Shown: one piece after another, positions 14,655-19,789 of the stretch
How positions within the stretch are numbered: position 1 is the stretch's first letter
Layout: every line of letters starts with the position of its first letter
Source of the DNA: an uncultured Pelagibacteraceae bacterium
Lineage (GTDB): Bacteria; Pseudomonadota; Alphaproteobacteria; Pelagibacterales; Pelagibacteraceae
Assembly: GCA_902517865.1 (NCBI GenBank)
Contig: CABYDT010000002.1
Span: 1 to 64,000, forward strand
Direction: 5' to 3'
DNA: 64,000 nt
Notes under the pieces: model-generated
Database searches by the model: none
The model's input: the letters and a program-made list of their open reading frames with translations, nothing else
Told to the model about the DNA's origin: nothing
Translations under genes and position numbers: made by a program

Positions 14655-16799
14655 ATGACAATATTACAATCTTTTAATACAGCAGAAAAGAAAACTTCTA
14701 AAGGGTTTTTTAATAAAAAACTCGAAGGTGGTAAAAAATTTAAAATTACTAATAATTTTAAGCCTGCTGGTGATCAACCTTCAGCTATTGATCAATTAAA
14801 AAAGGGATTAAATAATCTTGATAGAAGTCAAGTTTTATTGGGAGTTACAGGATCCGGAAAAACATTTACGATGGCTAAAATTATTGAGGATTTGAATAGA
14901 CCTGCATTGATACTAGCTCCAAATAAAACCTTAGCAGCACAATTGTACGGGGAAATGAAAAATTTTTTTTCAGGAAATTCAGTGGAGTACTTTGTATCAT
15001 ACTATGATTATTACACGCCTGAAGCCTATGTCCCACGTTCAGATACTTATATTGAAAAAGAGTCCTCAATTAATGAACAAATCGATAGGATGAGACATTC
15101 TGCGACAAGATCTTTATTAGAAAAAGACGATGTTATTATTGTATCAAGTGTATCATGTATCTATGGGCTTGGCTCAGCCGAGTCGTATAGTAAAATGACA
15201 TTCACTTTTACGCGTAATGAAAAATATAAAAGGGAAGATGTTATAAAAGGGTTAATAGAGCTTCAATACAAAAGAAATGATCAAAACTTTCAAAGAGGTA
15301 CTTTCAGAGTCAGAGGAGAAAACATTGAAATTTTTCCGTCTCATTTGGAAGACAGGGCTTGGAAACTTTTGATTGAGGATGAAAAACTAGTAGAAATAAA
15401 AGAATTTGATCCGTTAACTGGAGAAAAAACTGAAAATTTATCAATTGTTAAGCTTTATGCAAATAGTCATTACATAACTCCGAGACCAACAGTTAAACAA
15501 GCAATTAAAGAAATTAGAGATGAGCTAAGTATTAGAATTAAAACTTTTACAGAGGAAAAAAAATTATTAGAAGCGCAAAGAATTGAGGAAAGGACACGAT
15601 TTGATTTAGAAATGATCGAAGCTACTGGGACATGTTCTGGAATTGAAAATTACTCCAGATTTCTTTCTGGAAGAAAAAAAGGCGAACCACCTCCTACACT
15701 ATTTGAGTACTTGCCAGACAATTGCATTGTCTTTGTAGATGAAAGTCACGTTACTGTGCCTCAATTAAATGGTATGTATAAAGGCGACTTTACAAGAAAA
15801 AAAACTCTTTCAGATTATGGATTTAGACTACCATCGTGTATGGATAACCGTCCATTAAAATTTGAAGAATGGAATTTGATGAGACCACAAACAGTGTTTG
15901 TTTCTGCTACGCCGGGTGAATGGGAATTGAATGAGACAAAGGGAGTTTTTGCAGAACAGATTATTAGACCTACAGGTTTAATAGATCCCATAGTGGAAAT
16001 TAGAAAAGCAAAAAACCAAGTTGATGATTTATTAAATGAGTGTCTGAATATTTCAAAAAAAAATCAAAGAGTATTGGCAACAACGCTTACAAAAAAAATG
16101 GCAGAAGATTTAACTGAATACCTTGATGAGAATGGTGTGAAAGTTAGATATATGCATTCAGATATCGACACACTTGAAAGAATAGAAATTATAAGAGATT
16201 TAAGACTTGGTGTATTTGATGTGTTAGTCGGAATAAATTTATTAAGAGAAGGTTTAGATATTCCTGAGTGTGCTCTTGTTGCAATATTAGATGCAGATAA
16301 AGAAGGTTTTCTAAGATCAGAAACCTCTTTGGTTCAAACAATTGGGAGAGCAGCTAGAAATATTGATGGAAAAGTAATTTTATATGCTGATAAAGAAACT
16401 AAAAGTATAAAAAAAGCTATAGATGAAACAAATAGAAGAAGAGAAAAGCAAATTTTTTATAATAAGAAAAATAAAATTAGTGCACAAAGTGTACAAAAAG
16501 AAATCTCTGATATTTTAGAAAGTGTTTATGAAAAAGATTATCTAAATACTGATAAATTTGTTAAGCCTGGTCATAATTTAAAAAAACATATCAAATCATT
16601 AAAAAAAGACATGCAAACATCAGCTGACAATTTGGAGTTTGAACAAGCTGCAAAGATCAGGGACGAAATAAGGAAATTAGAGAGTTCTGATCTTGGATTA
16701 ACTGTAAATTCTTCAATAAAGAAATACAAAAAAGATAATATTGGTAGATCTACACAGGGTCGAGCTGGTATGAAAAGTGGAAAAAGATATAAAAAGTAA
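14655..16799 (+). CDS. uvrB: Excinuclease ABC subunit B
   Basis: UvrB verifies DNA damage and loads UvrC in nucleotide excision repair. The 714-residue protein has the Walker [11 protein letters not shown] (about residue 57), the beta-hairpin [20 protein letters not shown] (cited in part), the DESH Walker B box, helicase motifs ending in QTIGRAARN, and a C-terminal UVR motif ([20 protein letters not shown], about 650-670) that contacts UvrC. An N-terminal extension of about 30 residues precedes the core, as in other alphaproteobacterial UvrB proteins. The start is set by ATG at 14655. uvrC lies about 1.2 kb downstream on the same strand, with the broken reductase gene and folB between. Confidence 0.97.
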
Positions 16800-16801
16800 A
16801 A

Positions 16802-17563
16802 ATGAAAAATATATTAATTACAGGAAGCTCAAAAAGAATAGGAGCAGAATTCGTCAAATTTTTTTTATTCATTAACTTTAATATTTCTTTTTCTCCATGT
16901 TATTCTTTGACCGCTATCTAGAGAAATTACTTCACCTGTCACCGAAGGCGTATTAAAAAAAATCGAGTTATAATTGTAAAGGGTGACTTGAGCAGTGAAA
17001 AAGGTGCTAATAAAATTTTTTCTGAGTCAAAAAAAAAACTGGGTAAAATTACTCATTTGATCAATTGTGCCTCTGTATTTGAAAACGATGATATTAAAAA
17101 TTTTAATTCATCTAAATGGAATATGAATATAAATGTAAATCTAAAAGCTCCTTACATTCTAATGTCTGAATTTTCTAAACAAAAATTTAATAAAAAGGAT
17201 CAAGGGAATATTATAAATGTTATTGACCAAAGAGTATTTAATCTAACACCATTTTTTTTTAGCTATACATTAAGTAAAGTAGCGTTATATAATTTAACAA
17301 TTACCTCAGCTATGAGGTTAGCTCCCAATATAAGAGTTAATTGTATTGCGCCTGGTCCCGTAATTAAAAATTTAAGGCAAAACGAGAATCAATTTAAAAA
17401 ACAATATATGAATACTTTGCTTAAAACCAAAGTAAATCCCTTGGAATTATGTGAAGCAGCTCAATTTTTTTTTAATACGCCTTCGGTGACAGGTGAAGTA
17501 ATTTCTCTAGATAGCGGTCAAAGAATAACATGGAGAAAAAGAAATATTAAAGTTAATGAATAA
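16802..17563 (+). pseudogene. Disrupted folM/pteridine-reductase-like SDR gene
   Basis: Both ends read as one short-chain dehydrogenase of the FolM/pteridine reductase type. The N-terminal piece has ILITGSSKRIGAEFVKF, with the NAD(P)-binding TGxxxRIG motif. The second piece, from about 16964, has RVIIVKGDLS, INCASVFEND, the catalytic YTLSK and the terminal TGEVISLDSGQ. Between them, 16858-16962 is a perfect inverted copy of the gene's own 3' end. The flanks stay in frame (ATG 16802 to codon 16988 is 186 bp) and the spacing to GDLS is normal for an SDR, but a TAG at 16919-16921 stops translation after 39 codons. A TTG at 16988 could start a 191-residue remnant lacking the cofactor-binding fold. 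It begins 2 bp after uvrB and overlaps folB by 8 bp. Confidence 0.85.
16858..16962 (-). repeat. Inverted copy (recipient arm) of the folM-like 3' end
   Basis: These 105 bp are identical, base for base, to the reverse complement of 17466-17570. One end lies in a T8 run (16859-16866) and the other in an A8 run (16955-16962). The corresponding donor runs are A8 at 17562-17569 and T9 at 17465-17473, so the breakpoints fall in homopolymers. The segment carries no open frame of its own and breaks the reductase gene. Confidence 0.97.
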
Positions 17564-17570
17564 AAAAAAT
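17466..17570 (+). repeat. Donor arm of the 105-bp inverted repeat
   Basis: This is the native 3' end of the reductase gene, coding for about the last 30 residues with TGEVISLDSGQRITW, plus the first bases of folB. Its reverse complement appears perfectly at 16858-16962. The arms are separated by 503 bp (16963-17465) and centred at 17214. As a perfect repeat it could in principle support inversion of the 503-bp interval, but I see no recombinase. Confidence 0.97.
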
Positions 17571-17957
17571 AAAATAATTCAATTCAATAAGAGTAGTCTT
17601 AAAGAAGTTAGGAAAATTGTAATTAAAGACTTAATTATAAATACTAAATTTGGATACTATGAAAAAGAAAAGAAGAAAAACCAAAGGCTGAGGTTTAATA
17701 TAGAAATAGAAGTCTTCATGTTACCCATAGATGATAAATCAATAAAAAATATAATTGATTACGACAAAATTATCAAAATCATAGAGATAATTTTAAGTAA
17801 ACATATAAATTTTTTGGAAACCTTATCAGAAGAAATATGTAGTGAAGTTCTTAAAGACCAAAGAGTAAAAAATATAAATCTACAAATTGACAAATTAGAC
17901 ATAATTGAAAAAACAAGTTCTGTAGGAGTAAAAACTTATAAAGAAAGAATTAGATGA
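17556..17957 (+). CDS. folB: FolB-like dihydroneopterin aldolase
   Basis: Dihydroneopterin aldolase cleaves dihydroneopterin to 6-hydroxymethyl-dihydropterin in folate synthesis. The 133-residue protein is divergent but keeps the FolB pattern: VIKDLIINTKFGYYEKEKKK (the IG..xxE region), then Q-R-L-R-F-N-I-E-I, IIDYDKIIKIIEIIL (the vDY segment), NFLETLSEEI with the catalytic-region Glu, and the final KLDIIEKTSSVGV strand. The N terminus is about 20 residues longer than usual. It overlaps the folM-like pseudogene by 8 bp and uvrC by 4 bp. The pairing with a pteridine-type SDR supports a folate role for both. Confidence 0.8.
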   Translation: MNKKNKIIQFNKSSLKEVRKIVIKDLIINTKFGYYEKEKKKNQRLRFNIEIEVFMLPIDDKSIKNIIDYDKIIKIIEIILSKHINFLETLSEEICSEVLKDQRVKNINLQIDKLDIIEKTSSVGVKTYKERIR

Positions 17958-19789
17958 ATAATTTAGAAAGTGGAAAAAAATTATTTAGAAATAAATCTAG
18001 AATAGCATCAAATTCGCCTGGAATTTATCAAATTTTAGACGATAAAAATAAAGTTATTTATGTTGGTAAAGCTAAGAACCTGCCAAAAAGACTTCAAAAT
18101 TATTCTACAAAATCATTATTACCGATCAGGACAGAGCGCATGATATCTGCTTCGAAAAACATTGAATTAATCACAACCAGAAACGAGTCAGAAGCGTTAT
18201 TATTAGAGGCAAATTTAATAAAAAAATTTAAACCACGCTATAATGTTTTGTTAAAAGACGACAAATCATTTCCATATATTCAAATCACTAATCATAATTT
18301 TCCACAGTTAACTAAATTTAGAGGTAAGCATAATGATAAGGATATATTTTTCGGTCCATTTGCATCCATAGCGTCTGCAAATTGGACAATAAAAATGTTG
18401 CAGAAAGTTTTTCAAATAAGAGTGTGCGATGATCACACTTTTAAAAATAGGAAAAGACCCTGTATTCTATACCAAATAAAAAGATGTGCGGGCCCATGTA
18501 CGGCGGAAATTAGTGGAAAAGAATATTCCAATCTAGTCAATCAATGTTTAGATTTTTTAAGAGGTAAATCGAGACAAATACAAAAAAAACTTTCATTCGA
18601 TATGGATATTGCAAGTAAAAATCAAAATTATGAAAAAGCTGCAATTTTAAGGGACAGGATTAAATCCTTAACATTTATTCAATCTTCACAGCATATTAGT
18701 AAGAAAAATTTTAATAATGCTGATCTTATTGTCTCCTATAGGAAAGAAGATAATACTTGTATTAGTGTTTCTTTTTTTAGATCCAAACAAAATTGGGGTA
18801 GTCAATTTTTTTATCCGTCTCACGAAAAAGAAGATAACGAGACTAAGGTTATAAGTTCTTTCATAACACAGTTTTATGAAAATAAGGAACCACCTTCAGA
18901 GATAATTACTAATATTGAACCGGAAAACAAACAATTAATTATAAAAGCTTTCAATACAAAATTTCGAAAAAAAATAAATCTTAAGACTGGAAAAAACAAT
19001 TCAATGATTTCAAATGCTTTAAAAAATGCAAGTGAGAATCTAAACAATAAGTTATTTCATAGCAAAAAAAATATTGAATTTTTAGAATCTTTGTCTGAAA
19101 CATTTAAATTACAATTCATACCAAATTTTATTGAAGTTTATGATAATAGCCACATGCAAGGTTCAGATAGCACGGGAGCTTTAATAACTTTTGGAGAAGA
19201 AGGCTTTATAAAAAATAGATATAGAAAATTTAATATTAAAGATAAAAATATAAAGGGAAATGATGATTACGGCATGATGAAAGAAGTTTTAAAAAGAAGA
19301 TTTTCAAAAATAGCTAAGGGAGATGATAACTTTACACCCGATTTATTATTAATTGACGGAGGAAAGGGGCAATTTTCTGTAGTAAAAAATACTTTAAATG
19401 AATTAGGTTTTTATGAAATAAAAGTAATAGCAATGTCAAAAGGAAAAGACAGAAATAAGGGTAACGAAAAATTTATTTTAGATGGTAAAATTGTTTCATT
19501 AAAAAATAATGATCCTATTTTGTTTTTTTTACAAAGACTTAGAGATGAAGCACATAGGTTTGCTATAACAACCCATAGAAAAAAAAGAAGCAAAAATATA
19601 TCTAAATCGCAATTAGATTTAATTGAAGGCATTGGTAGATCAAGAAAAAAATCATTATTAAATCATTTCGGGTCTGTAAAAGCAATAGAGGGTGCGAGCT
19701 TAGAAGAAATCGAAAAAGTTGAAGGTGTAAATAAAAGCTCAGCTCTTAAAATTTATAATTTTTTTCACAAGTCAAAAAATTTAATATGA
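17954..19789 (+). CDS. uvrC: Excinuclease ABC subunit C
   Basis: UvrC makes the two incisions around a lesion during nucleotide excision repair. The 611 residues contain the GIY-YIG nuclease domain (GIYQILDD, VIYVGKAKNL at 20-45), a cysteine-bearing segment (RPCILYQIKRCAGPC), a UVR motif (KNQNYEKAAILRDRIKSL) that pairs with UvrB, the RNase H-like second nuclease domain (IEVYDNSHMQGSDSTGALI, LLIDGGKGQ, DEAHRFAI), and C-terminal helix-hairpin-helix repeats (LIEGIGRSRKKSLLNHFG). It overlaps folB by 4 bp and pgsA by 4 bp, so it is part of a tight plus-strand operon. Confidence 0.97.
   Translation: MNNLESGKKLFRNKSRIASNSPGIYQILDDKNKVIYVGKAKNLPKRLQNYSTKSLLPIRTERMISASKNIELITTRNESEALLLEANLIKKFKPRYNVLLKDDKSFPYIQITNHNFPQLTKFRGKHNDKDIFFGPFASIASANWTIKMLQKVFQIRVCDDHTFKNRKRPCILYQIKRCAGPCTAEISGKEYSNLVNQCLDFLRGKSRQIQKKLSFDMDIASKNQNYEKAAILRDRIKSLTFIQSSQHISKKNFNNADLIVSYRKEDNTCISVSFFRSKQNWGSQFFYPSHEKEDNETKVISSFITQFYENKEPPSEIITNIEPENKQLIIKAFNTKFRKKINLKTGKNNSMISNALKNASENLNNKLFHSKKNIEFLESLSETFKLQFIPNFIEVYDNSHMQGSDSTGALITFGEEGFIKNRYRKFNIKDKNIKGNDDYGMMKEVLKRRFSKIAKGDDNFTPDLLLIDGGKGQFSVVKNTLNELGFYEIKVIAMSKGKDRNKGNEKFILDGKIVSLKNNDPILFFLQRLRDEAHRFAITTHRKKRSKNISKSQLDLIEGIGRSRKKSLLNHFGSVKAIEGASLEEIEKVEGVNKSSALKIYNFFHKSKNLI

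Follow-up and report, generated by a model that had tools for sequence, protein, structure and literature searches.

A perfect inverted copy of its own 3′ end interrupts a FolM/PTR1-type reductase gene in a Pelagibacteraceae assembly and probably arose during genome amplification

The window analysed here is a 64,000-nt stretch of one contig from an uncultured Pelagibacteraceae bacterium. It carries a gene of the SDR family between uvrB and a folB-like dihydroneopterin aldolase gene, the latter followed by uvrC (Table 1). The genome is SAR11-type, and its closest relatives among the genomes compared are two congeners, Pelagibacteraceae AG-359-E06 and Candidatus Pelagibacter MED817. Within the SDR gene lies one arm of a long inverted repeat, the other arm of which spans the end of the same gene and the start of folB.

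Table 1. Coordinates of the genes, repeat arms and junction tracts at the locus (numbering of the window)
Feature	Coordinates	Strand	Remarks
uvrB, upstream neighbour	14655..16799	+	intact
FolM/PTR1-type SDR gene (NCBIfam NF006597-like)	16802..17563	+	interrupted: in-frame TAG at codon 40, within the inverted segment
Recipient arm	16858..16962	-	inverted copy of 17466-17570; takes the place of ~96 bp of ordinary SDR sequence
Left junction	16858..16866	+	A-T8 tract common to donor and recipient
Right junction	16955..16962	+	A8 tract, 8 nt, common to donor and recipient
Donor arm	17466..17570	+	true 3′ end of the SDR gene plus the folB start; orthologous order in AG-359-E06 and MED817
folB-like dihydroneopterin aldolase	17556..17957	+	intact; start inside the donor arm
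uvrC, downstream neighbour	17954..19789	+	intact

The SDR carries the motif TGSSKRIG, that is, TGX3RXG in place of TGX3GXG. A comparative study assigned the TGX3RXG motif to FolM and PTR1 (PMC1971073). The best NCBIfam model for the protein is NF006597, followed by the pteridine reductase model NF006598. An intact ortholog scores 275 bits against NF006597, slightly under its cut-off of 281, and 111.6 against the dihydromonapterin reductase FolM model NF005066, far below the cut-off of 249. Judged from motif and model scores, the gene is best called a FolM/PTR1-type SDR, plain FolM being a loose name. It resembles FolM/PTR1-type SDR pteridine reductases in the TGSSKRIG motif, in SDR family membership and in the adjoining folB; it differs from them in that the present copy stops at codon 40 and has no intact full-length frame. 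Of 397 genomes of the family, 340 have the gene. Among about 155 family matches listed, an internal stop occurs solely in the SDR of the present genome, and a search of the assembly at the DNA level revealed no further copy of the SDR gene. In 21 genomes of the order (the present genome and 20 relatives), no FolA (PF00186) hit exceeded the cut-off, and ThyX (PF02511) is present in 19 of these 21. The gene content suggests that the FolM/PTR1-type SDR beside folB is a candidate for the missing step of pterin or folate reduction. With no recognisable FolA in the lineage, loss of this reductase would probably be costly, which disfavours a knockout.

The two arms are exact reverse complements of each other over all 105 positions (105/105), with 503 nt between them. 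A first-pass annotation of this DNA had described the pair in the same terms, and had taken the donor arm to be the true end of the gene. The latter description is correct for the 3′ end of the SDR gene; in addition, the arm runs 7 bp beyond the SDR stop and into the start of folB (ATG 17556). The whole assembly (962,553 bases, 16 contigs) was scanned for perfect inverted repeats. Genome-wide, no other pair of at least 20 bp lies within 5 kb, and the 105-bp pair is the sole perfect inverted repeat of at least 24 bp at any distance within a contig. Likewise, there were no perfect inverted repeats of at least 20 bp within 5 kb in samples of four related genomes totalling 1.53 Mb, namely the SAR11 single-amplified genomes (SAGs) AG-893-F11 (400 kb), AG-349-O13 (400 kb) and AG-359-E06 (332 kb) and the isolate HTCC9565 (400 kb). 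Thus, the inverted pair is present in the sequence and is beyond chance. A search for sister scars, covering perfect repeats in either orientation on one contig or across contigs, yielded no further inverted one genome-wide, so the assembly is not generally chimeric. One direct repeat was noted on contig C6 (36973-37043), where a 47-bp match is offset by 24 bp, with the unit CATGATGACCACGGACATAAAAAA.

Comparison with relatives shows what the inverted segment has changed. AG-359-E06 is unusable for the 5′ part of the gene, as its contig starts inside the gene, and MED817 is therefore the sole congener with ordinary sequence at this site. Ordinary sequence is also found there in 28 further aligned SAR11-type orthologs. 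Relative to MED817, 105 bp stand in place of about 96 bp, which lengthens the gene by 9 bp without shifting the frame; relative to the 28 other orthologs, there are 3-4 extra residues at the segment. The flanks lie in one frame, the ATG at 16802 and the GGT of the GDLS motif at 16982 being 180 nt apart. These comparisons bear out the earlier view of the event as a replacement with in-frame flanks. The accompanying claim, that the change was length-neutral with normal spacing between TGSSKRIG and GDLS, holds approximately, given the 9 bp and the 3-4 residues. The premature stop was missed in the first-pass annotation: the TAG is brought in by the inverted segment itself, and an SDR restarted downstream of it would be without the N-terminal nucleotide-binding motif. 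An ancient inverted segment shared with relatives, raised at the outset as the case that would overturn this picture, is ruled out by the ordinary sequence in MED817 and the 28 orthologs. The junction sequence was not found in viral contigs.

Both breakpoints fall in A/T homopolymers, as first described: T8 (16859-16866) and A8 (16955-16962) in the recipient, T9 (17465-17473) and A8 (17562-17569) in the donor. With MED817 as a proxy for the ancestor, the overlap at the left junction is A-T7 (8 nt); an ancestral T8 would extend it to A-T8-AT (11 nt). Random inverted junctions in the contig share at least 8 nt with a probability of 5.6e-4 per junction. Therefore, both ends were probably guided by annealing of A/T tracts, and the tracts point to two annealing-guided template switches. 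A T tract opens, and an A tract closes, both the replaced stretch and the inverted donor, which is why the event resembles a neat cassette swap. There is no mismatch between the arms over the 105 sites, whereas the donor arm differs from the congener AG-359-E06 at 5 of 105. The event thus postdates the split from AG-359-E06, or was made in vitro.

Several properties of the assembly bear on the second possibility. Its smallest contig is 2,016 bp, and contig ends share no overlaps anywhere in the assembly, in contrast to the contig ends of the MAG MED817 at the SDR gene. A published single-cell pipeline trims 100 bp off each contig end and keeps contigs longer than 2,000 bp (PMC5519541), and one of the two congeners, AG-359-E06, is a SAG. 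Based on the contig floor, the lack of shared ends and the SAG congener, the present assembly looks like a single-amplified genome. When 204 genes were compared with AG-359-E06, one other broken gene was found, so that the assembly is clean apart from these two cases and shows no general decay of genes. The break, at ~35920-35960 of contig C5, is the loss of a single base from an A tract; it divides a reading frame of 866 aa, intact in AG-359-E06, and reflects either a sequencing error or a real frameshift. Two short contigs (C15 and C16) have N at both ends, from masked or withheld stretches, and the assembly contains 6,606 N in total.

We consider it likely, with a probability of roughly 0.7, that the inverted segment is a local chimera produced by a double template switch during phi29 multiple displacement amplification (MDA) of single-cell DNA and subsequently incorporated into the assembly. 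This figure and the wording chosen for the alternatives below are judgements, not computed values. Under this reading, the organism most likely lacks the change, and an ordinary SDR gene is probably present in the cell. The nascent 3′ end in A-T8 (around 16866) would first be displaced and anneal to A8-T (17562-17570) on a nearby displaced strand of opposite polarity. About 100 nt of that strand would then be copied leftwards. At the T9 tract, the 3′ end, now A8, would be displaced again and would re-anneal to the original template at the T8 opposite 16955-16962. Normal synthesis would resume from there, so that about 96 bp of the original would be left out in favour of the 105-bp inverted copy.

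The features of the locus agree with what is known of MDA chimeras. More than 85% of such chimeras are inversions; the joined segments mostly lie less than 10 kb apart, and priming takes place at complementary stretches of 2-21 nt (Lasken and Stockwell 2007, PMC1855051). Their distances peak at 250-300 nt within the range 0-5,000, with overlaps mostly of 5-8 nt, and single reads with two or more chimeric parts are known in MDA data (Tu et al. 2015, PMC4595205). Here, the second segment is inverted, the arms are 503 nt apart, that is, under 10 kb, and the shared tracts of 8-11 nt on the left and 8 nt on the right lie within 2-21 nt. The likeness to phi29 chimeras thus covers the inversion, the distance, a short complementary tract at each junction and the precedent of chimeras with more than two parts. 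There are also differences. The overlaps, at 8-11 nt, are rather long compared with the mode of 5-8 nt, the present case involves two switches with a return to the original template, and the scar has reached the assembly consensus. Some points stand against an artefact. It requires two switches in a molecule common enough to become the consensus, and the same footprint is left by template switching in vivo. Nor was a comparable scar found in the three SAR11 SAGs (1.13 Mb sampled); such scars are therefore not routine in SAG assemblies, and no SAG-specific enrichment was seen. The first-pass annotation had proposed a double template switch, either at a replication fork or as a chimera of amplification or assembly. 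The double switch is supported as the best-fitting mechanism, and the branches now carry unequal weight: the SAG-like assembly, the chimera literature and the fact that the gene is strongly conserved all speak for an in vitro origin. On these grounds, we infer that the switches took place in vitro.

The strongest competitor, which we regard as unlikely though of real weight, is a genuine and very recent template-switch mutation, in which a replication fork moved to the opposite strand via A/T microhomology and back, inactivating the SDR. The footprint matches that of replication template-switch mutations (PMC7954356): a reverse-complement copy of nearby sequence replaces a local stretch relative to the relatives, and the flanks stay collinear. 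Microhomology at both ends, a single consensus sequence with flanks in frame, and perfect arms suited to a recent event fit this explanation as well. In prokaryotes, however, the hallmark of such mutations is the conversion of a quasipalindrome to a palindrome (PMC7954356); here, no prior near-palindrome is seen, and the scar is known from one assembly alone. The mutation would also have stopped a gene that is intact in all other family genomes among the matches listed, in a lineage without recognisable FolA. The scar was seen in no second genome, and the assembly looks amplified.

An error of the assembler's path is improbable. It would have joined two single-junction chimeras, one leading from the left flank into the inverted donor and the other from the inverted donor into the right flank, with the ordinary 96 bp left uncovered. 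As the graph already contains the donor k-mers, reads would be needed for the two junctions only, and coverage is uneven in single-cell data (PMC5519541). Yet this path demands two independent chimeras at both ends of one 105-bp segment, in tracts that keep the frame, which makes one double switch the simpler account. A functional or ancient element under selection, such as an invertible switch, an attenuator or a regulatory hairpin, is highly improbable: although the perfect 105-bp stem is predicted to be extremely stable (z -20), the segment is not in MED817 or the 28 other orthologs, its identical arms imply a recent origin, it destroys a conserved gene of which no second copy was found in the assembly at the DNA level, and no Rfam match or RNA family was found in the region.

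If the segment is an amplification chimera, the label pseudogene should not be applied to the SDR of this assembly, and the locus provides a clear instance of an MDA scar mimicking a length-conserving mutation. If the mutation is real, it would be a rare directly observed template switch over a long range (~500 bp) in a single wild SAR11-type cell, and it would mean that this FolM/PTR1-type reductase can be lost where FolA is not found.

As a separate observation, both congener assemblies break in the same SDR gene, at most about 55 bp apart and just upstream of the donor arm. The break points correspond to window positions 17372 in AG-359-E06 and 17394-17426 in MED817. In MED817, which is a MAG, the two contig ends at the SDR gene overlap by 33 bp.
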